This document shows, in pieces, positions 44,537-53,630 of a stretch of 64,000 bases of DNA. The translations under genes were made by a program, and so were the position numbers. This DNA comes from Fibrobacterota bacterium. GTDB taxonomy: Bacteria; Fibrobacterota; Fibrobacteria; UBA11236. Every line of letters starts with the position of its first letter. Position 1 is the first letter of the stretch. The stretch is taken from positions 1 to 64,000 of the forward strand of contig JAEKLQ010000039.1 of the NCBI GenBank assembly GCA_019509785.1, in the 5' to 3' direction. The notes under the pieces were generated by a model, which was given only the letters and a program-made list of their open reading frames with translations, was not told the origin of the DNA and ran no database searches.

Positions 44537-45010
44537 ATGGGATCGCCTGTCAAGGTCGAGCATATCAATCCCTTCGTGAACGCCACGATGGAAACCTTCA
44601 GAACCATGGTCCACACGGAGGCGACCCCGGGGAAGATCATGCTCGTCTCGGGAAGCCATTTGAAATACGACATCTCCGGCATCATCGGCCTGAGCGGCGG
44701 CGCCAAGGGCACCGTGGCCTTGTCCTTCCCGCGCATAACCGCCCTCAAGGTGGTCTCCGGGTTAATCGGGGAAAAGCAGCTGGCCTTGGACGATACCGTC
44801 AAGGATGCCGTTGGCGAGCTCGCCAACATCGTCGCGGGCGCGGCCAAGAAGGATCTGACGCAATACAAGATCAGCATCTCCCTGCCCACGGTCATCATCG
44901 GCGAGAACCACCAGGTCCAGGGCGGCAAGGAAGTCGTTCCTTTGCTCGTGCCCTTCGAAACCTCTTTCGGCGGTTTCCACCTGGTTGTCGGTTTTACGAG
45001 CGAGATCTGA
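44537..45010 (+). CDS. cheX: CheX-like CheY phosphatase, copy 1
   Basis: A 157-residue protein of the CheC/CheX/FliY phosphatase group. It has HLKYDISGIIGLSGGAKGTV and the catalytic E-x2-N helix DAVGELANIVAGAAKKDL. CheX removes phosphate from CheY. It is the first of three + strand genes (cheX, cheX, CheY-like) separated by 3 and 29 bp. Confidence 0.88.
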   Translation: MGSPVKVEHINPFVNATMETFRTMVHTEATPGKIMLVSGSHLKYDISGIIGLSGGAKGTVALSFPRITALKVVSGLIGEKQLALDDTVKDAVGELANIVAGAAKKDLTQYKISISLPTVIIGENHQVQGGKEVVPLLVPFETSFGGFHLVVGFTSEI

Positions 45011-45013
45011 AAC

Positions 45014-45484
45014 ATGCCCATATCCATCCGCGCCGAGCACGTCAATCCCTTCATCCTCTCCAACCTCGAGACCTTCGTCAAGATGGTCGGCATCGAGGCC
45101 AAGCCCGGCAAGCCCATCCTCAAGCAGGACGCCCGCCTCGACTACGATATCTCCGGCATCATCGGCCTTTCGGGCAAGGTGATCGGGACCGTTTCCCTCA
45201 GCTTTCCCGAAGCCACCGCCTTGGCGGTGTGCAATAAGTTCATGTCCGCCAATCTCAAGGTGATGAACGCGGAGATCCTGGATGCGGTGGGCGAGCTCAT
45301 CAACATCGTCGCCGGCAACGCCAAGAAGGGCCTGACGGAATTCAACATCGAGATATCCCTTCCCAGCGTCATCGTCGGCAAGAACCATCGCATCGTCGAA
45401 CCCAAGGGCTCCGTGGGATTCGTCATCCCCTTCGCAAGCGCCCTCGGGAGTTTCCACATGGCCGTGAGCCTGAAGCCGGCCTGA
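45014..45484 (+). CDS. cheX: CheX-like CheY phosphatase, copy 2
   Basis: A 156-residue paralogue of the preceding gene. It shares the ISGIIGLSGKVIGTVSLSFP core and the E-x2-N helix DAVGELINIVAGNAKKGL, so both copies keep the catalytic residues. CheX proteins work as dimers, so a heterodimer of the two products is conceivable. No motility genes are nearby. Confidence 0.88.
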   Translation: MPISIRAEHVNPFILSNLETFVKMVGIEAKPGKPILKQDARLDYDISGIIGLSGKVIGTVSLSFPEATALAVCNKFMSANLKVMNAEILDAVGELINIVAGNAKKGLTEFNIEISLPSVIVGKNHRIVEPKGSVGFVIPFASALGSFHMAVSLKPA

Positions 45485-45513: not shown

Positions 45514-45879
45514 ATGAAAATCCTGCTCGTCGACGACTCCACCACCATGCGCCGCATCCAGAAGAACACGCTCGAGAAGCTCGGCCATACCGACGTCACC
45601 GAGGCCGGGGACGGCGCCGAGGCCATCGCGAAGCTGCAGGGCGGCGGCTTTGAACTGGTCCTGATGGATTGGAACATGCCCAACATGACCGGCATCGAAG
45701 CCTTGAAGAAGATCAAGGCGGATCCGGCCCTCAAAAGCGTGCCCGTGATAATGGTGACCTCGGAGTCGGAGAAAACCCGCATCCTCGAAGCCATCCAGAG
45801 CGGAGCGGCCAATTACGTGGTGAAGCCCTTCCAGCCCGAGACCTTGGCCGAGAAAATCGCTTCGTCAGTGAAGAAATAA
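45514..45879 (+). CDS. cheY: CheY-like response regulator
   Basis: A 121-residue receiver with KILLVDDSTTMRRI, phospho-Asp in LVLMDWNMPNMTG, Thr in VTSESEK and Lys in YVVKPFQPE. This sequence style is close to CheY of chemotaxis systems. Position 29 bp after the two CheX genes makes it their likely substrate. Confidence 0.92.
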   Translation: MKILLVDDSTTMRRIQKNTLEKLGHTDVTEAGDGAEAIAKLQGGGFELVLMDWNMPNMTGIEALKKIKADPALKSVPVIMVTSESEKTRILEAIQSGAANYVVKPFQPETLAEKIASSVKK

Positions 45880-46407: not shown

Positions 46408-47679
46408 TCAGCTTAGGAAAGCGCGATCGGCCGCAAGGCTGTCGCATAGCGAAGCGTACGCGCTCCGCAAACGCTCCGGGTCCGGAGCGGATCCCGCGGC
46501 GCGCAAAAGGCGCTCGGCAAGGGATCCCTGCTCGAGGATCAAATTCAAGCGGGGGTACAGGGCCGCATCCGCGCCGTTCAGGCCGTCGGCGGGGAAGAGC
46601 CGCGGAGTCAGGGCCCGCAGGAACGCGCCCGCCGTGGGCTGAGGTTCCAGGCCGAAGGCGCTAAAAGGGAATCCGTCGGGCAAGGCCGCTCCGCCGCCGC
46701 TGCGGGCCGCCTCCAGGAAGACCGCCTTCAATAATCCGGGCGGAGCCTTGCGATGGAGCGCGGCAAGATCGCCCCCGTTCTCGATCATATGCTGCAATGC
46801 CCGCGCGGCCCAGCGGCACACCGCCAGATCCGCGGTCGGCCCCTCCTGGCTGTCCAGGCAGCGGATCTCGATGGACCCGCGCGAGAAACGCGCGATGGCC
46901 GCGCGCGAGTTGAGCCATTCCTCCTGCAAGAGGCCGTCCGGATCGTGCGGGGCGATGGCGCGGAACATGGGCTGCAATATCCGATCGCGGTATTCGGACT
47001 CGCTTTCCGCCGGCTCCGGCACGATGCCGCCGATGATCTGGGGAAGGCGCTTCTGGTTGCCCACGTAATGGGACAAACGTCCGCTCAGCCAACCATGATG
47101 GGCGCCGTCGTGGAAAGGGCTCGACGCCGCCAGGGCGGGAAGTACGGGCAACAGCAGGCTGATGGCGCTGTGCAGGCGCGCGAATTCGGCGTCGCCGCGG
47201 AAAGGCAGGTTCAGGTGCACGCTCTGGATGTTGAACCAGCCATGCCCGCGCACCCCGAAAACGCGGTCGAAGGCGGCATAGATGGCGTTGTCCTCGTGCA
47301 TCCACAAGCCCGATTCGCGGGCCGGATCCATGAAGGGGTGCATGCCGCCGGGCATGAGGCGGCAGCCCCAGCCTCGCAAGGCGCCATCGGCCGCGCGCAC
47401 GGCGGCGGCGAAGTCCCCGGCCTGCGCGGCCAGGTCCGTCGCGGGCCGCCGGAGTTTCAGCTCCAGCACGTGGGCGGCCAGTTCGTTGTCGGCCTCGACA
47501 TTGCCTGCGGCGGGATGGGCGTCCGGGTCGCCCCCCAGCGCCTCCAGGAGCCGATCGGCGGAAGCGTCCACCGCCAAGCCGTTCCGGCGGACGATGGCGT
47601 ATTCGATCTCCACGCCGTAGACCTGGAAGAGGGACCAAGATTTAGGCTCCTCGCTAGGAGTTCGCTGGGCGAACTCCAC
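46408..47679 (-). CDS. GCS2-family (YbdK-like) carboxylate-amine ligase
   Basis: A 423-residue ATP-dependent glutamate-cysteine-ligase-like enzyme. It starts its conserved part with FQVYGVEIEYAIVRRNGL and has NVEADNELAAHVLELKLRRP, LMPGGMHPFMDP, FNIQSVHLNLPF and RGSIEIRCLDSQEGPTADLA, standard for the GCS2 group. Such enzymes couple a carboxylate to an amine, often building small peptides. It is last of a minus-strand set with a C39-like peptidase and an ATP-grasp ligase. The first canonical start in frame is GTG 47679, but the frame stays open further upstream through a Pro/Ala/Glu-rich stretch. Confidence 0.85.
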   Translation of the reverse strand: MEFAQRTPSEEPKSWSLFQVYGVEIEYAIVRRNGLAVDASADRLLEALGGDPDAHPAAGNVEADNELAAHVLELKLRRPATDLAAQAGDFAAAVRAADGALRGWGCRLMPGGMHPFMDPARESGLWMHEDNAIYAAFDRVFGVRGHGWFNIQSVHLNLPFRGDAEFARLHSAISLLLPVLPALAASSPFHDGAHHGWLSGRLSHYVGNQKRLPQIIGGIVPEPAESESEYRDRILQPMFRAIAPHDPDGLLQEEWLNSRAAIARFSRGSIEIRCLDSQEGPTADLAVCRWAARALQHMIENGGDLAALHRKAPPGLLKAVFLEAARSGGGAALPDGFPFSAFGLEPQPTAGAFLRALTPRLFPADGLNGADAALYPRLNLILEQGSLAERLLRAAGSAPDPERLRSAYASLCDSLAADRAFLS

Positions 47680-47680
47680 G

Positions 47681-47743
47681 CTCGTCGCATTTGAATGGGC
47701 CGGCTCCTCGCTCCTCGTCGCATTTGAAGGGGTCGGCTCCTCG
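47681..47743. repeat. 33-bp tandem repeat upstream of the GCS2-family gene
   Basis: Two nearly identical units (47681-47713 and 47714-47743) beginning CTCGTCGCATTTGAA. On the minus strand in the GCS2 frame they spell two 11-residue units, EEPTPSNATRS and EEPAHSNATSV. A perfect 8-bp hairpin (GGAGTTCG/CGAACTCC, 47659-47679) abuts them and covers the GTG start. Confidence 0.75.
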
Positions 47744-47852
47744 CCGGGATTCTGATCAAAGGGAGCGGCACCGGACGCGGCGGGGGGCGCCGGTTCGGGT
47801 TCGGGGGCGGCTGGGACGGACCCGCCTAAGCCCCGGGCATCAAAGCGGGCGT

Positions 47853-49370
47853 TTATCGAACCACCTGCAGGTTGAGGAGCTTGACGATCTCGGCGGGCAT
47901 GGCCGGCTCGCGGTCCTTGCGCGCCTTCAGCTTATCGATGCGGTTGGCGAACTCCTCCATAATCGTGTTATAGAGGCGATCCTTGAGCACCTGATCCTCC
48001 ACGCCCACGTCGATGTTGGGGTTGTCGTTCACTTCCACCACGTAGGGCTTCTTGCCCACCACCTTGATGTCCACCCCGTACAGCCCGTCGCCGATGAGCC
48101 GGGCCGCGCGCAAGGCGGTATTGATGATGAGCGGCTGCACGTGCTCGACCGGATAGGTCAGATGGGCCCCGTCCTTGGCGTCGTCCTTATGGTTGATGAT
48201 CTGCCAGTGGTTGCGCGACATGAAATATTTGCAAGCGAAAAGCGCCTTGCCGTTGAATACTCCGACGCGCCAGTCGAACTCGGTGGGCATATACTCTTGC
48301 GCGATGATGTAATCGGAACGCTTGAAATACTCCTTGCACGTCGCCGCCAATTCGCCCGGATCTTCCACCTTCACCACGCCCCGCGAGAACGACCCGTCGG
48401 GGATCTTGATGATGATGGGGAATGAGAAATGCTCGTAGATCTGGCCCAGGTTGTCCTCGGACAGGATGAAGGTTTTCGGGCGCGGGATGCCTTCCCGCTT
48501 GAACAGCTCGTTCAGGAAGATTTTATTCGTGCAGTACAATATCGATTTTGGATCGTCGATAACCACGATCTTTTCCTTCTCCGCCTTCTTGGCGAAGCGG
48601 AAGGTGTGGTGGTCGATGGCCGTGGTTTCGCGGATGAATAGACCGTCGAATTCCGGCAGATGCGCGAAATCCTTCTTCTCGATGACTTCCACGTCCAGGC
48701 CGTTGTGCTTGCCGGCCTTGATGAATTTCTGGATGGCCGCGTCGTCCGAAGGGGAGAACCGTTCGTTCGGATTGTAGAGGATGGCCAAATCGTAGCGGGC
48801 CGAATTGTTGAGCCGCTTGATGCCCCACCGGTTGATGGAGAATTCGGACAAGGCCTCCAGGAACACCCCCAGGTGCGACTCGGGGATGGAGTTGATGGAC
48901 ATGGAGCGGATGGAGGTGAGGATCCAGTGTTTCTCGCGGCGGAAATAGACCTTGAAGAAGGGGCAAGGGAACAGGTTGAAGAACATGCGCGAGATCTTCT
49001 CGTATTTCTTGGACGCGTTCTTCCCGAAATACACCGACAGCTCGTATTTGTTGTCCGAGATGTTGGCCAGATCCTTCTGGATCTGCGCGTTCAGATCGTC
49101 GGTCTCGATGAGGTAGAATTCCTTCTTCGAGAGCGCCTGCATGGTGGAGATGTTGGGCAGCACCTTATGGCCGCGCGCCTCCGCCACCAGCGAAACGTAA
49201 TACCCCGATCCGAGGTAGCCGTAATTGCTGGCCAGGTTGATGATCTTCAATGGCCGCACGTCCTGCCATTCGGGGGCGAAGAGGTAATCCTCCACGCTCA
49301 CGAATTCGATCTGCGGGACCCGTTTCTTCCAGTGGCGGGGATTCTCCACCACGCATATGTTCCTGATCAT
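47853..49370 (-). CDS. RimK-type ATP-grasp ligase with RLAN N-terminal domain
   Basis: A 505-residue ligase. Residues 1-170 match the RLAN domain that precedes some RimK-like enzymes (LKIINLASNYGYLGSGYYVSL, SRMFFNLFPCPFFKVYF). The ATP-grasp part has LFIRETTAIDHHTFRFAKKA, IVVIDDPKSILYCTNKIFL, FPIIIKIPDGSFSRGVVKVE, EYMPTEFDWRVGVFNGKALF and the metal site LYGVDIKVVGKKPYVVEVND. These enzymes form amide bonds by acyl-phosphate chemistry. It starts 4 bp after the C39-like gene, so the pair is coupled. Confidence 0.92.
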   Translation of the reverse strand: MIRNICVVENPRHWKKRVPQIEFVSVEDYLFAPEWQDVRPLKIINLASNYGYLGSGYYVSLVAEARGHKVLPNISTMQALSKKEFYLIETDDLNAQIQKDLANISDNKYELSVYFGKNASKKYEKISRMFFNLFPCPFFKVYFRREKHWILTSIRSMSINSIPESHLGVFLEALSEFSINRWGIKRLNNSARYDLAILYNPNERFSPSDDAAIQKFIKAGKHNGLDVEVIEKKDFAHLPEFDGLFIRETTAIDHHTFRFAKKAEKEKIVVIDDPKSILYCTNKIFLNELFKREGIPRPKTFILSEDNLGQIYEHFSFPIIIKIPDGSFSRGVVKVEDPGELAATCKEYFKRSDYIIAQEYMPTEFDWRVGVFNGKALFACKYFMSRNHWQIINHKDDAKDGAHLTYPVEHVQPLIINTALRAARLIGDGLYGVDIKVVGKKPYVVEVNDNPNIDVGVEDQVLKDRLYNTIMEEFANRIDKLKARKDREPAMPAEIVKLLNLQVVR

Positions 49371-49374
49371 GGCC

Positions 49375-50067
49375 TTATCTCTTTGCTATGGCTAAGAGGT
49401 TTTCGTCGTAAGTGAGTATGCCGAGCATTACCGCGTTGCTGAACTTCACGAAGGGCAGGCGGTAGGTGCCCGTATCCGAAAAGGGATTCTTGCGCAGGGG
49501 ATCCTGGATGGTGACCATGCGCGTATGCGGATCCCACGCGTTCACCACCACGAAATGCCCCACGGGATGGCCCGCGACATCGTCTTCCAGGTTGTCGTGG
49601 GTTTCCCGGGACTGCTGGTAGAGATAGGTCGCGGAAAGACCGCAAATGACCGGCTTATGCGACCGGAATAGGCGGCCCATCAGATCCTCGTCCAGATCGT
49701 CGAAGCGAACCTTGCCGCCTTTTTTGAGGAAGTCCTGGTAAAAGCGGATCACTTCCTTCTGCTTCACGCTGCGCACCCGGCTTTGGCGAAGCCGTAGCTT
49801 TTGCGACAGGTCCTTGGACGGCAGATCCTTCCAGGTGGGATCGAAGATTTTCAGGTTGTAGGTGTAGATTTCGGCGTCGTAGCCGTGGGCGAGGGCATGC
49901 CGGGCCAGGTTCACGGCCACAGTGCCACCCGTGCGCCAATGTTCGATTTCGTGCTTGAGCGTGGCCAGGGATGTGGGATGCGCGTAGTAGTCGTAAATCG
50001 CTTTAAGGCAAGTGATGCCGCAACTCTCGTCGTCGGGCTGCTGGGTAACATGGAGGTCGAGCTTCAT
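49375..50067 (-). CDS. C39-like cysteine peptidase domain protein
   Basis: A 230-residue protein starting MKLDLHVTQQPDDESCGITC, where the Gln and Cys (DESCGITCLKAIYDYY) are those of papain-like C39 peptidases. The His/Asp region is GHPVGHFVVVNAWDPHTRMVTIQDP. No signal peptide or transporter domain is present, so it is cytosolic. Placed with the RLAN ATP-grasp and GCS2-type ligases it may process a peptide made by them. It could also act as a transferase. Confidence 0.85.
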   Translation of the reverse strand: MKLDLHVTQQPDDESCGITCLKAIYDYYAHPTSLATLKHEIEHWRTGGTVAVNLARHALAHGYDAEIYTYNLKIFDPTWKDLPSKDLSQKLRLRQSRVRSVKQKEVIRFYQDFLKKGGKVRFDDLDEDLMGRLFRSHKPVICGLSATYLYQQSRETHDNLEDDVAGHPVGHFVVVNAWDPHTRMVTIQDPLRKNPFSDTGTYRLPFVKFSNAVMLGILTYDENLLAIAKR

Positions 50068-50140
50068 CGGAACAGGCAATCCCCGTACCAAGGGCTGCGC
50101 GCGGCCCCGCTCTTCGCCCGCGCTCTGTCGGCGACCTGAA

Positions 50141-50908
50141 TCATTGCCCTTGCAACGCTCCCTGGATCATCTTCTTCATCTGCTCGATCTGCTCAGGCGT
50201 AGGCTGGGACGTTCCCGCCCCGGCGAGATCGGATTGGGCGTACCCCGTGGGCACCGAGAACATGGAGGTCGGCACCGTCCGACGTTCGATTTTCCGGACC
50301 TCGGTGGTGACGCGCTGGCCGTCCCGCACCACGATGCAGCGCATGGGCAGGCCCGACTTGCCGGCCGCGTCCAGGGCGCGGAAGGCGTCGGCCGCGCCGA
50401 ATTGCGGATTGGCCTGCTGCAGCTTGCGCAGCACGCCGTAGACGTCCGGCAGTTCCTGGGTGACCCATGCGTCCACCAATTCATGCGGCCGGGTCAAGGT
50501 CAGGTGGGTGCAGGCATAGCCGAGCAGCTTCTCCTTGCCCACTTCCTTGAGGGTATACTTCCCCCCGGCGGAATCGGCCCCGGGCGCGTCCGTGAGATCG
50601 ATCACGCTATAGGATTTCATGGCATCGTTGACGAGGGTGGCCTTGCGCGGCGCCTTGGCATCCAGCAGCACGGCCATGCGGAGGGGCGTGGGCAGGGGAT
50701 TCATCGTGATCGCCAAGTCGAGCTTGGCGCGCTCCCCCGCCATCCACAGGCGCAAATCGCCGCCCCCGCTTTCCATGGTGAGCTTGAGATCGATCGCGCC
50801 TTCGAAGGGCCCCGCGCCGGCGCCTTTCGCTGCGGCCATGGCACGGCCGCCGGCCGCCAATAGGAAAAGGAAGAGGAAGGTGGGAAGGATCGGAAGGCGT
50901 TTAGGCAT
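50141..50908 (-). CDS. DUF4412-like secreted protein
   Basis: A 255-residue exported protein (signal LFLFLLAAGGRAMA). It shows the DUF4412 pattern: GAIDLKLTMESGGGDLRLWM, KSYSVIDLTDAPG, LGYACTHLTLTRPHELVDAW and PTSMFSVPTGYAQ. The family forms periplasmic beta-rich domains of unknown role. It is 73 bp upstream of the C39-like gene and may be transcribed with it. Confidence 0.75.
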   Translation of the reverse strand: MPKRLPILPTFLFLFLLAAGGRAMAAAKGAGAGPFEGAIDLKLTMESGGGDLRLWMAGERAKLDLAITMNPLPTPLRMAVLLDAKAPRKATLVNDAMKSYSVIDLTDAPGADSAGGKYTLKEVGKEKLLGYACTHLTLTRPHELVDAWVTQELPDVYGVLRKLQQANPQFGAADAFRALDAAGKSGLPMRCIVVRDGQRVTTEVRKIERRTVPTSMFSVPTGYAQSDLAGAGTSQPTPEQIEQMKKMIQGALQGQ

Positions 50909-51010
50909 CGAGTGGGTGGGGTATTCCTTGCTATCCGATTATAAAAGTAACTTATCGGCGGAGTCGATGCCTAACCTTTCCCGGATTAAAATCGGAAGCG
51001 GGGAAACCCC

Positions 51011-52552
51011 CTGAGCCGCTTCTCCCTGAGCGCCATCCTGACGCTCGGCGTCCTGGTCGCGCCCCTTCGGACCGGCGCCGCTCCGTCTCCCGCCCGCCCC
51101 GCCGTTTCGGCGCCCACCGCTCCGGCTCCCGCCACAGCGGCAACCCACGCCCCGGCGCCCGCCGCTTCGCCTTCTCCCTGCGCCGCCAGGTCCCCCGACG
51201 AAGCCCCGCCCGTTCCCGGATCCCCCGCCGCCGTCCTCAAGGCCTTCGACTCCCTGCTCGATGCCGGCCGCCTGCCCCAGGCGCGCGCGCTCTGCGCCGG
51301 TTCCATGCTGCGCATGTTCGACTTCGTCGCCCTGGCCCAATCCAAATTGGCCGGCCTGGTCGACACCTGCCGCAGCCATGAAAAGATCCTGGAGGAGAAG
51401 CAGGGCGGAGGTTGGGCCTACGTCAAGTCGGCCGGGGTCACCGTCTTCAAGCGCCCCTTCATGGGCCAGGACTCCCTGGCCTCCGTGCAGGCCGCCCACC
51501 TCTACCGTTCGGGCCGGTACTGGCTTCTGGTGGAGATGGAAGAATTGCCCGATAGCTCGGCCCCCGTCCATCTGCGATCCGGTACGCCCAGGCTCGAAGT
51601 CGCTTCCGATCCGGGCGACCTTCGGTCGGGCGACCTTCGGTCGGGCGGCGTCCCGTCGGGCAGCGTCCCGTCGCGAGCCCTTCGGTCGGGAACGCCCACC
51701 CAGGCCGATGCCGGGTCGGCCTCAGGGGCCGCGAACCTGTTCCCGGTTTCGCGTTTGGCTCCCTCCCAAGCCGGCCTCGCCGATCGCCTGCGCCTGCGGC
51801 TCACCTTGAGGAATGGCGAAGCCTGGGAAGGCTTGCTCCCCTTGGGGCCGGGCCAGGTCCGCTTGCGCGCCCTCTCCCCTTCCGATTGGATCGTGGAGAA
51901 TCGCAAGGTGGCCCCGGGGCCGCGCGCGGCCGCGCCCACTTCGGCCAGCGATGCCCGCTGGCTTTCGTCCAATTCCTTCCTGGTCCTTACCGATACCTTA
52001 TTGCAGGCCACGGCCGCTTCCATCGCCGGGAAAGAGACCGATCCGCAACGCATCGCGGACGCCGTTTACCGCTGGGTCTCCGACCGTTTCCATTTCCGCT
52101 TAGGGTCCGTGCTTTTCGGGGCCAGCCCCGAGGTGCTGCGCAATCTGACGGGGGATTGCTCCGAGGCCGCCGTCCTCACGGCCGCATTGCTCCGCGCCCG
52201 CGGCGTGCCCGCGCGCATCGCCCTGGGATTCGCCAGCCTGGGCAGGGGGGTATTCATCGGACATGCCTGGTGCGAAGCCCGCCTGGGGGGAGAGTGGGTG
52301 GGCGTGGACGCGGCCCTGCGCGAGTTCCCGTCCGGCGTGGAACGGATCAAGCTGGCCGAGCTGGACGGCCGCGAGAACCTGCAGATCGCGGCGACCAACC
52401 TGATGATGCGGTTGATCGCGAATCTGGACGTGCAGATTGAGGGCGCCTGGAAAGACGGGAAGCCCTTGCCGCTGAAGCGCTTCGAAGGCAATGCGGCCGA
52501 GGCGGAGAAATACTTCCAGGACATCTTGGACGGAGCGACGGAGAAGCCCTAA
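51011..52552 (+). CDS. Secreted transglutaminase-like protein
   Basis: The papain-fold transglutaminase core is clear: DRFHFRLGSVLFGASPEVL, LTGDCSEAAVLTAALL (Cys), GVFIGHAWCEARLGGEW (His) and VGVDAALREFP (Asp). The frame is open from just after a TAA at 50986, and the region from 51011 encodes a signal peptide (FSLSAILTLGVLVAPLRTG) and a Pro/Ala spacer. The only possible start there is CTG 51011, behind AGCGGGGAAA; the first ATG (51305) would lose the signal. A tandem insert DLRSGDLRSG...VPSGSVPS lies near residue 200. Such domains crosslink or cleave proteins in the periplasm. Confidence 0.8.
   Translation: MSRFSLSAILTLGVLVAPLRTGAAPSPARPAVSAPTAPAPATAATHAPAPAASPSPCAARSPDEAPPVPGSPAAVLKAFDSLLDAGRLPQARALCAGSMLRMFDFVALAQSKLAGLVDTCRSHEKILEEKQGGGWAYVKSAGVTVFKRPFMGQDSLASVQAAHLYRSGRYWLLVEMEELPDSSAPVHLRSGTPRLEVASDPGDLRSGDLRSGGVPSGSVPSRALRSGTPTQADAGSASGAANLFPVSRLAPSQAGLADRLRLRLTLRNGEAWEGLLPLGPGQVRLRALSPSDWIVENRKVAPGPRAAAPTSASDARWLSSNSFLVLTDTLLQATAASIAGKETDPQRIADAVYRWVSDRFHFRLGSVLFGASPEVLRNLTGDCSEAAVLTAALLRARGVPARIALGFASLGRGVFIGHAWCEARLGGEWVGVDAALREFPSGVERIKLAELDGRENLQIAATNLMMRLIANLDVQIEGAWKDGKPLPLKRFEGNAAEAEKYFQDILDGATEKP
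51607..51692. repeat. Short tandem repeats inside the transglutaminase gene
   Basis: Copies of GGCGACCTTCGGTCG and related GGCGTCCCGTCGGGC units, each able to form a small hairpin (CGACC/GGTCG). They encode DLRSG and VPSG repeats in a linker that family members would not need. Confidence 0.7.
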
Positions 52553-52660: not shown

Positions 52661-53551
52661 TCACTTCCACATCGTCACTATCACGATGGCCGCGAACATC
52701 AGCCCGGCCCCGATCAACCTGCGTCCCATTACGCCCGCCCCGGACAGGCGCTCGGTATTGCTGAACCAATGGCCCAAGAACCAGATCAACAGGAAATTCC
52801 AGAGTCCCCGGGAACTGAAGAGGATGTTCACCAGGGTCACCTGCCCGTAGATGCCGATCACGGCGGTGAGCAGAAGCGATTGCAGCCCGAGCACCAGGGA
52901 GCCGGCGGCCAGCCAGGCGAAGCCGCCTTGCGGCATCCGCCAGGGCGGAGCCTTAAGGCGCGGGACAAGGGCCAGGGAATACAAGGCCGTGCACAGGGCC
53001 ATGGGGGGAAGGAAATGGAACGCGCCCCAGCGCGGCGCCCATTTCTGGATCAGCACGTCCCCGATGGCGAAGAAGGCGGCCGCGCAGAGGGAGTAGAGCA
53101 AGGTGCGCCAGACTCCCCGGCGCAGGTGGGGCGCTCCGGCCTGGAGCAGGAAAACGGCGGCGAAGGAAAGCGAGGCCGCGATCCACCAAGGCAAAGGGAC
53201 CGTTAAGCCGAGCAGCAGTTCCGTGAAGAGGGCGACCAAGAGCACCTTGGAGCCCAAAGCCGGGGTCGCCACGGTGAGATCCCCCGATGCGAAGGCGAGG
53301 ATGGCGCAACCCTGCCCCGCGAAGGAGGTAAGCCCGATCACCGCGGGCTGCCACCACACGTCCCAGGGGATAGATCGGCTTTCGAAAGGGAAGGCGAAAA
53401 CGAAAACCAGGGCCATGGCCCAGAAGTTGGCGATCAAGGTCGAAGGCATGTCCGCGCCCTTTTCGATGGACCGCTTCATCAATAAGGTGCCGGTCGGATA
53501 CAAGAAGGCGCAGCACAGCGGGACCAGCAAAGGGACGAGGGAACGCGTCAT
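52661..53551 (-). CDS. EamA/DMT-superfamily transporter
   Basis: A 296-residue membrane protein with about ten TM helices in two EamA halves: LVPLLVPLCCAFLYPTGTLL, FWAMALVFVFAFPF, AVIGLTSFAGQGCAILAFA and, in the second half, LLYSLCAAAFFAIGDVLIQK and GAGLMFAAIVIVTMWK. Substrate unknown. ATG 53551 is preferred over an upstream TTG. Confidence 0.85.
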   Translation of the reverse strand: MTRSLVPLLVPLCCAFLYPTGTLLMKRSIEKGADMPSTLIANFWAMALVFVFAFPFESRSIPWDVWWQPAVIGLTSFAGQGCAILAFASGDLTVATPALGSKVLLVALFTELLLGLTVPLPWWIAASLSFAAVFLLQAGAPHLRRGVWRTLLYSLCAAAFFAIGDVLIQKWAPRWGAFHFLPPMALCTALYSLALVPRLKAPPWRMPQGGFAWLAAGSLVLGLQSLLLTAVIGIYGQVTLVNILFSSRGLWNFLLIWFLGHWFSNTERLSGAGVMGRRLIGAGLMFAAIVIVTMWK

Positions 53552-53630
53552 GGGCGGACGCAAGATAGATTATGGCGGAGCCGGGGTTTCACGGGCCATG
53601 GCGCTCTATACATCCATAACGGGGGCGGGC

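Follow-up and report, generated by a model that had tools for sequence, protein, structure and literature searches.

We put at about 0.55 the probability that the C39, RLAN ATP-grasp and GCS2 genes described here belong to a pathway that makes and breaks down a small non-ribosomal peptide containing glutamate. In the proposed scheme, GCS2 would activate glutamate, or a similar acid, at its gamma-carboxyl and join it to an amine to give a gamma-glutamyl amide, and the RLAN ATP-grasp ligase would add a further residue, extending the GCS2 product at the carboxylate. The C39 peptidase, assisted in most lineages by an FGase-type metallohydrolase, would reverse both steps and dismantle the product for turnover. 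The chemistry, substrates, direction and physiological role proposed are those that the enzyme families suggest. Such a compact gene set, which keeps its order over at least 11 phyla and sets two ligases against two hydrolases, suggests that a small-peptide pathway still awaits characterisation. The split between making and breaking, together with a swap of GCS2 for a GNAT acetyltransferase in a sister clade, turns a vague prediction into a testable one.

The RLAN domain was reportedly named by Iyer et al. 2009 (Mol Biosyst 5:1636), who are also reported to have predicted operons of a similar type for peptide metabolites or tagging. The literature searched, a scope that did not extend to that work, yielded no paper describing the set (combinations of RLAN, C39 and FGase) or its function; the FGase member, the making/breaking split and the GCS2/GNAT swap were derived in the present analysis.

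Gene run and conserved linkage

The window, the whole 64,000-nucleotide stretch that was analysed, is part of a 5.4-Mb Fibrobacterota MAG. It carries a minus-strand run in the order DUF4412, C39, RLAN ATP-grasp, GCS2 (Table 1), with intergenic gaps of 49 bp between DUF4412 and C39, 4 bp between C39 and RLAN, and 173 bp between RLAN and GCS2. In a Pfam search all four identities (DUF4412, C39, RLAN/RimK and GCS2) lie above the gathering cut-offs, the RLAN ligase scoring 152 bits against 25 for PF14401 and 36 bits against 21 for PF08443; the gene identities and the 4-bp gap are as the first-pass annotation had described them. The GCS2 ORF opens with GTG and its start is uncertain, while the real start of C39 is probably the ATG at 50067, because homologues begin at Met9 of the listed ORF. 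Promoter-like sites number three in the region against 0.9 expected in shuffles, which is weak evidence for the candidate transcript start. The RLAN-GCS2 spacer is shorter in sister loci (5-86 bp) than in the window; the core of the 31-nt repeat within it is unique in the window, and related sequence occurs in the adjacent N-terminal part of the GCS2 ORF.

Table 1. Features of the gene run and its spacers.
Feature	Positions	Strand	Details
GCS2 carboxylate-amine (gamma-glutamyl) ligase; ligase module	46408-47679	-	423 aa; PF04107, E 1e-26; 94 bits against cut-off 21
Two 31-nt near-copies, 33-nt period	47681-47744	n/a	Within the enlarged RLAN-GCS2 spacer
RLAN + RimK-like ATP-grasp amide ligase; ligase module	47853-49370	-	505 aa; PF14401, E 1e-44; PF08443, E 6e-9
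C39-like cytosolic cysteine peptidase; hydrolase module	49375-50091	-	238 aa; PF03412, E 1e-9; 38.6 bits against cut-off 22
Exported DUF4412 protein	50141-50908	-	Heads the run; N-terminus hydrophobic; PF14371, E 2e-39
Promoter-like site TCGACT-18-TATAAT; candidate transcript start	50938-50967	-	Upstream of DUF4412; 10/12 consensus positions

The run is flanked by a transglutaminase-like gene (51305-52552, plus strand) and an EamA transporter gene (52661-53563, minus strand). Synteny of this block extends through the genus, since L035 and L039, two sister-genus loci, have similar genes on the same side of the set. The window also holds two tandem CheX-type chemotaxis phosphatase genes (44537-45484, plus strand) separated by 3 bp, and then a response-regulator-like ORF (45514-45879).

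Linkage was surveyed with a scan of 84,980 species genomes for RLAN, from which the best 80 loci were taken; figures outside Fibrobacterota are therefore lower bounds. The order C39, RLAN, GCS2 occurs in at least 11 phyla, at approximately 40-45% identity and often with overlapping genes. Besides Fibrobacterota these include at least ten others: Thermodesulfobacteriota, Planctomycetota, Balneolota, Verrucomicrobiota, Acidobacteriota, Spirochaetota, Pseudomonadota, Tectimicrobiota, Ignavibacteriota and Bacteroidota. Because the same order recurs in those loci of the window's genus with enough contig, across the phylum and at a minimum of 22 loci in ten other phyla, the linkage of the three genes is not chance. 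Among the best 80 loci, 28 from outside Fibrobacterota fall on the window's side of the RLAN tree, and 22 of these carry the trio in order; of the remaining six, two carry just RLAN and GCS2, two lie near a GNAT gene, and two sit on 7-kb contigs with none of these partners. Within Fibrobacterota, the loci examined have GCS2 after RLAN and, as a rule, C39 before it; 4-bp overlaps of stop and start codons are frequent. RLAN itself has a patchy distribution in the phylum, occurring in 92 of 168 genomes, and the family has no member in 14 well-known control genomes. Inconsistent linkage would have counted against the cluster suggested at first pass; the neighbourhood survey proposed there found the trio consistently linked.

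The exported DUF4412 protein had originally been grouped with the set. Four sister loci have sequence upstream of C39 (L034, L035, L037 and L039), and all four carry the DUF4412 gene at that place; it is absent from beside the set in every fetched locus outside the window's genus; with its linkage confined to one genus, we rejected it as a component of the system.

An all-against-all comparison of 38 neighbourhoods (ORFs of at least 45 aa) revealed a single further widespread family, the N-formylglutamate-amidohydrolase-like FGase (PF05013), which lies directly downstream of GCS2 in at least 21 loci. The original picture of a three-gene cluster therefore stands for the trio itself and is incomplete in that FGase is normally a fourth member. 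The same comparison returned no recurrent precursor, carrier, target or exporter gene, in agreement with the earlier remark that no precursor gene was seen. This bears on whether the run could be a RiPP cluster, in which C39 would cut a leader peptide and the ATP-grasp enzyme would form lactam or lactone rings in the manner of graspetides. Leader cleavage is indeed what C39 domains do in bacteriocin exporters, and the ligases of graspetides belong to the ATP-grasp enzymes (PMC8939145). Against this, the 38 neighbourhoods hold neither a recurrent small ORF, among those of at least 45 aa, nor an exporter, the C39 protein is free-standing (238 aa, a single domain, no ABC domains and no recurrent ABC partner), and the ligase pair persists where C39 is lacking. 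We consider a RiPP origin very improbable.

Proposed making and breaking modules

RLAN, FGase, C39 and GCS2 were each searched over the same 168 Fibrobacterota genomes; Pfam scores served to tell trio-type from HutG-like FGase matches, and the counts exclude a weak C39 match in G006 (E 3e-4), which lies in a frame of 1026 aa. RLAN and GCS2 occur together in 90 genomes, RLAN only in 2 and GCS2 only in 3. C39 is never found without GCS2 (82 of 82 C39-bearing genomes). Within the 90 genomes with the ligase pair, C39 and FGase are both present in 73 and both absent in 9, C39 occurs without FGase in 8 (6 of them from the window's genus) and FGase without C39 in none. These counts come from related genomes and are not phylogenetically independent, and Fisher values calculated on them overstate the evidence. 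Of 19 Fibrobacter genomes checked in which C39 lies apart from RLAN, 17 have C39 and FGase 14-27 bp from one another at a separate site; when this site and RLAN are on one contig, 25-125 kb lie between them. From this operon split and the co-occurrence counts, the ligases RLAN and GCS2 form one unit and the hydrolases C39 and FGase another.

Nine Fibrobacterota genomes keep the ligase pair without C39, as do 2 loci of other phyla and some members of the GNAT clade described below. For this reason C39 looks like an optional breakdown arm and is unlikely to be a maturation step, and the 'trimming' role first assigned to the peptidase is unlikely to hold.

A tree of 91 RLAN proteins, built by a quick method with SH-aLRT support and no bootstrap, separates the trio side, on which the window's genus forms a long separate branch, from 51 mostly proteobacterial loci (SH-aLRT 99). 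On this sister side, a GNAT is fused to a C39-like domain (DUF3335, PF11814) in at least 26 of the 51 loci, and a GNAT without C39 is found in at least 21. Stand-alone GNAT genes adjoin RLAN at L059, L073, L074, L075 and other Lysobacterales/Rhodanobacteraceae loci, whose relatives carry the GNAT-C39 fusion. Thus in Gammaproteobacteria a GNAT acetyltransferase substitutes for GCS2, with C39 either fused to it or missing, and C39 is therefore dispensable here too. The work is divided in this way in NAGGN synthesis too: Ngg carries out both the acetylation and the ligation of glutamine, and its operon includes an aminopeptidase gene (PMC8070244).

The FGase member varies more in its position. 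In Nitrosomonas communis and Blastopirellula marina it does not adjoin the trio and is encoded elsewhere in the genome, while none was found in the genomes of four loci with a trio and no adjoining FGase (L062, L068, L086 and L110). The nearest solved structure to the trio FGase is the uncharacterised Atu2144. FGase-type enzymes free glutamate from N-acyl-glutamate, an action that would fit hydrolysis of an amide whose amine is glutamate. The trio-type enzyme is absent from the window's genus, though C39 is present there. The single PF05013 gene of the window's genome (G000:C22:188842-189546) is HutG-like; it scores 52.7 bits against TIGR02017, below the cut-off, has no match to the trio-FGase profile, and was rejected as a relocated fourth member. 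In this genus the missing arm may or may not be supplied by an unlinked HutG-like enzyme.

FGase genes were also seen in other company. In Sedimenticola hydrogenitrophicus (L166:1339-3422) a different but related FGase immediately precedes a GCS2 ligase of the YbdK type, so that FGase and GCS2 are paired a second time, away from the RLAN set, and in another Fibrobacterota genome (G026:C8:8936-10247) an FGase-type match sits beside a clear glutathione-synthetase-type ATP-grasp (PF02955, 177 bits).

The distribution of these genes also bears on amine detoxification or catabolism, whereby GCS2 would gamma-glutamylate a foreign or surplus amine, the ATP-grasp ligase would add a residue and the hydrolases would recover glutamate. 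The pairing of GCS2 with FGase also for YbdK-type ligases would suit such a role, as would a patchy occurrence of the kind expected of an accessory function. However, no recurrent oxidase, dehydrogenase or amine transporter lies near the set in the neighbourhoods compared, and the ligase pair is retained without the hydrolases; we therefore view this account as quite doubtful.

Catalytic signatures and predicted structures

Family signatures are kept in all three enzymes of the trio, and all three look active from their sequences. In C39, which matches its family above the cut-off with the Cys-His-Asp triad and oxyanion Gln retained, all 22 homologues compared, which come from many phyla, share Q18, C24, H179 and D197, and D197 is replaced by E in two Chitinispirillia-type sequences. 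D434, E446, N448 and R368 of the ATP-grasp domain are invariant over 29 homologues; going by family knowledge, we take the first three to bind Mg. The GCS2 metal and substrate motifs GxExEY, HP, HGxxNxQS and RxxxExR are invariant over 24 homologues and align with YbdK (1r8g). For C39 and GCS2 too, the residue roles given here follow from what is known of the families.

The AlphaFold model of C39 (pLDDT 84.7) resembles Alr0975 with glutathione (Z 15.7, 164 residues, 2.8 A) and, tied with it, the C39 domain of PCAT1 (Z 15.4, 134 residues, 1.9 A). Alr0975 cleaves a gamma-glutamyl tripeptide, and its structure entry is an acyl-enzyme with glutathione. A gamma-glutamyl tripeptide-like substrate is structurally plausible for C39 on this model, although the tie of 15.7 with 15.4 favours neither a small-peptide nor a protein substrate.

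The model of the RLAN ligase (pLDDT 84.6) has ArgX, LysX and RimK as its nearest structures, all of which act at the C-terminus of a protein. That resemblance is what speaks most for protein modification, in which the RLAN ligase would extend a host protein at its C-terminus or a side chain, GCS2 would add a gamma-glutamyl branch, and C39 and FGase would remove the addition, as with RimK/RimB on ribosomal protein S6. RimK/RimB gives a precedent for a ligase-protease pair (PMC12239564), the RLAN domain could bind protein, and C39 enzymes usually target peptides or proteins. On the other hand, a target or carrier gene is linked in no locus, and two unlike ligases with an FGase, whose family acts on N-acyl-glutamate, suit a small molecule better. 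Moreover, the GCS2 enzymes known to us all use free amino acids. We judge protein modification, the chief rival of the peptide pathway, to be unlikely, while giving it serious weight. The first-pass annotation had allowed for either a small peptide or a protein modification, made and trimmed by the set; linkage and catalytic signatures leave synthesis and breakdown of such a peptide or modification as the best reading, with the trimming unlikely and the DUF4412 protein dropping out.

In favour of the peptide pathway we count the gene order over at least 11 phyla, the position of FGase after GCS2, the co-occurrence counts, the Fibrobacter split, the lack of a precursor, carrier or exporter neighbour in the neighbourhoods compared, the GNAT swap with its NAGGN-like logic, the Alr0975 match and the Sedimenticola FGase-GCS2 pair. 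Counted against it are the closest structures of the RLAN ligase, whose substrate is a protein C-terminus and not a free dipeptide, the structural tie of C39, the phylogenetic non-independence of the counts, and the window's genus with no trio-type FGase. More specifically, and only tentatively, the product may be an undescribed gamma-glutamyl peptide metabolite with dedicated breakdown enzymes, shared by at least 11 phyla that include Fibrobacterota with no convincing glutathione synthetase.

Relation to known systems

Several established systems were compared directly with the set. Window GCS2 scores 15-50 bits against glutathione-family models with cut-offs of 176-437, and PF02955 has no match in the window's genome or genus; with the family cut-offs missed and PF02955 absent from the window's genome, glutathione synthesis proper was rejected. 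Trio-carrying Fibrobacterota have no convincing PF02955 glutathione synthetase (matches above 50 bits occur only in genomes without RLAN), which would allow a glutathione-like role for the set in these bacteria. The window's RLAN ligase reaches 82 bits against TIGR00768 (RimK alpha-L-glutamate ligase; cut-off 143.4), and a Rufibacter homologue 19.6 bits against the GAK-system ATP-grasp TIGR04356 (cut-off 300). TIGR03103, the NAGGN synthetase Ngg, is not among the best 25 matches of the RLAN proteins, a clade II GNAT-C39 protein scores 18.6 bits against its cut-off of 569, and the neighbourhoods compared contain no recurrent AsnO-like amidotransferase.

An anti-phage defence role was rejected, as PADLOC matches none of the four proteins. 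Viral origin was also rejected: a single viral-classed contig matched (IMGVR_UViG_3300028573_000030, L032:5001-5852), and it encodes a RimK-like ATP-grasp protein with 37% identity to the window's ligase domain, in a match that does not cover the RLAN domain.

Systems in which peptide ligases are linked to further enzymes have been predicted before (PMC4431377, citing Iyer et al. 2009), and three known systems share parts of this design. RimK/RimB and the Rlo operon likewise combine a RimK-like ATP-grasp ligase with an opposing protease (PMC12239564). The RimK/RimB protease is a retropepsin, a fold unrelated to C39, and RLAN, GCS2 and FGase are additional here. In the NAGGN system (asnO-ngg with an aminopeptidase gene), amine capping and ATP-dependent ligation likewise yield a non-ribosomal peptide, a hydrolase gene lies in the operon (PMC8070244), and the GNAT-clade RLAN loci use the same pair of activities. 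In contrast, capping would here fall to GCS2 and not to a GNAT, the AsnO-like amidotransferase is lacking, the hydrolase folds differ and the TIGR03103 cut-off is missed. The glutathione pathway also places a GCS-type gamma-glutamyl ligase before an ATP-grasp ligase (GshB), and the papain-fold, tripeptide-reactive Alr0975 is a top structural match of C39. The differences are that both ligases here fall short of every glutathione-family cut-off, that the ATP-grasp enzyme is of the RimK-like kind and carries an RLAN domain, and that FGase would replace gamma-glutamyl transpeptidase. By analogy, then, the proposed pathway resembles glutathione or NAGGN metabolism and is a member of neither.
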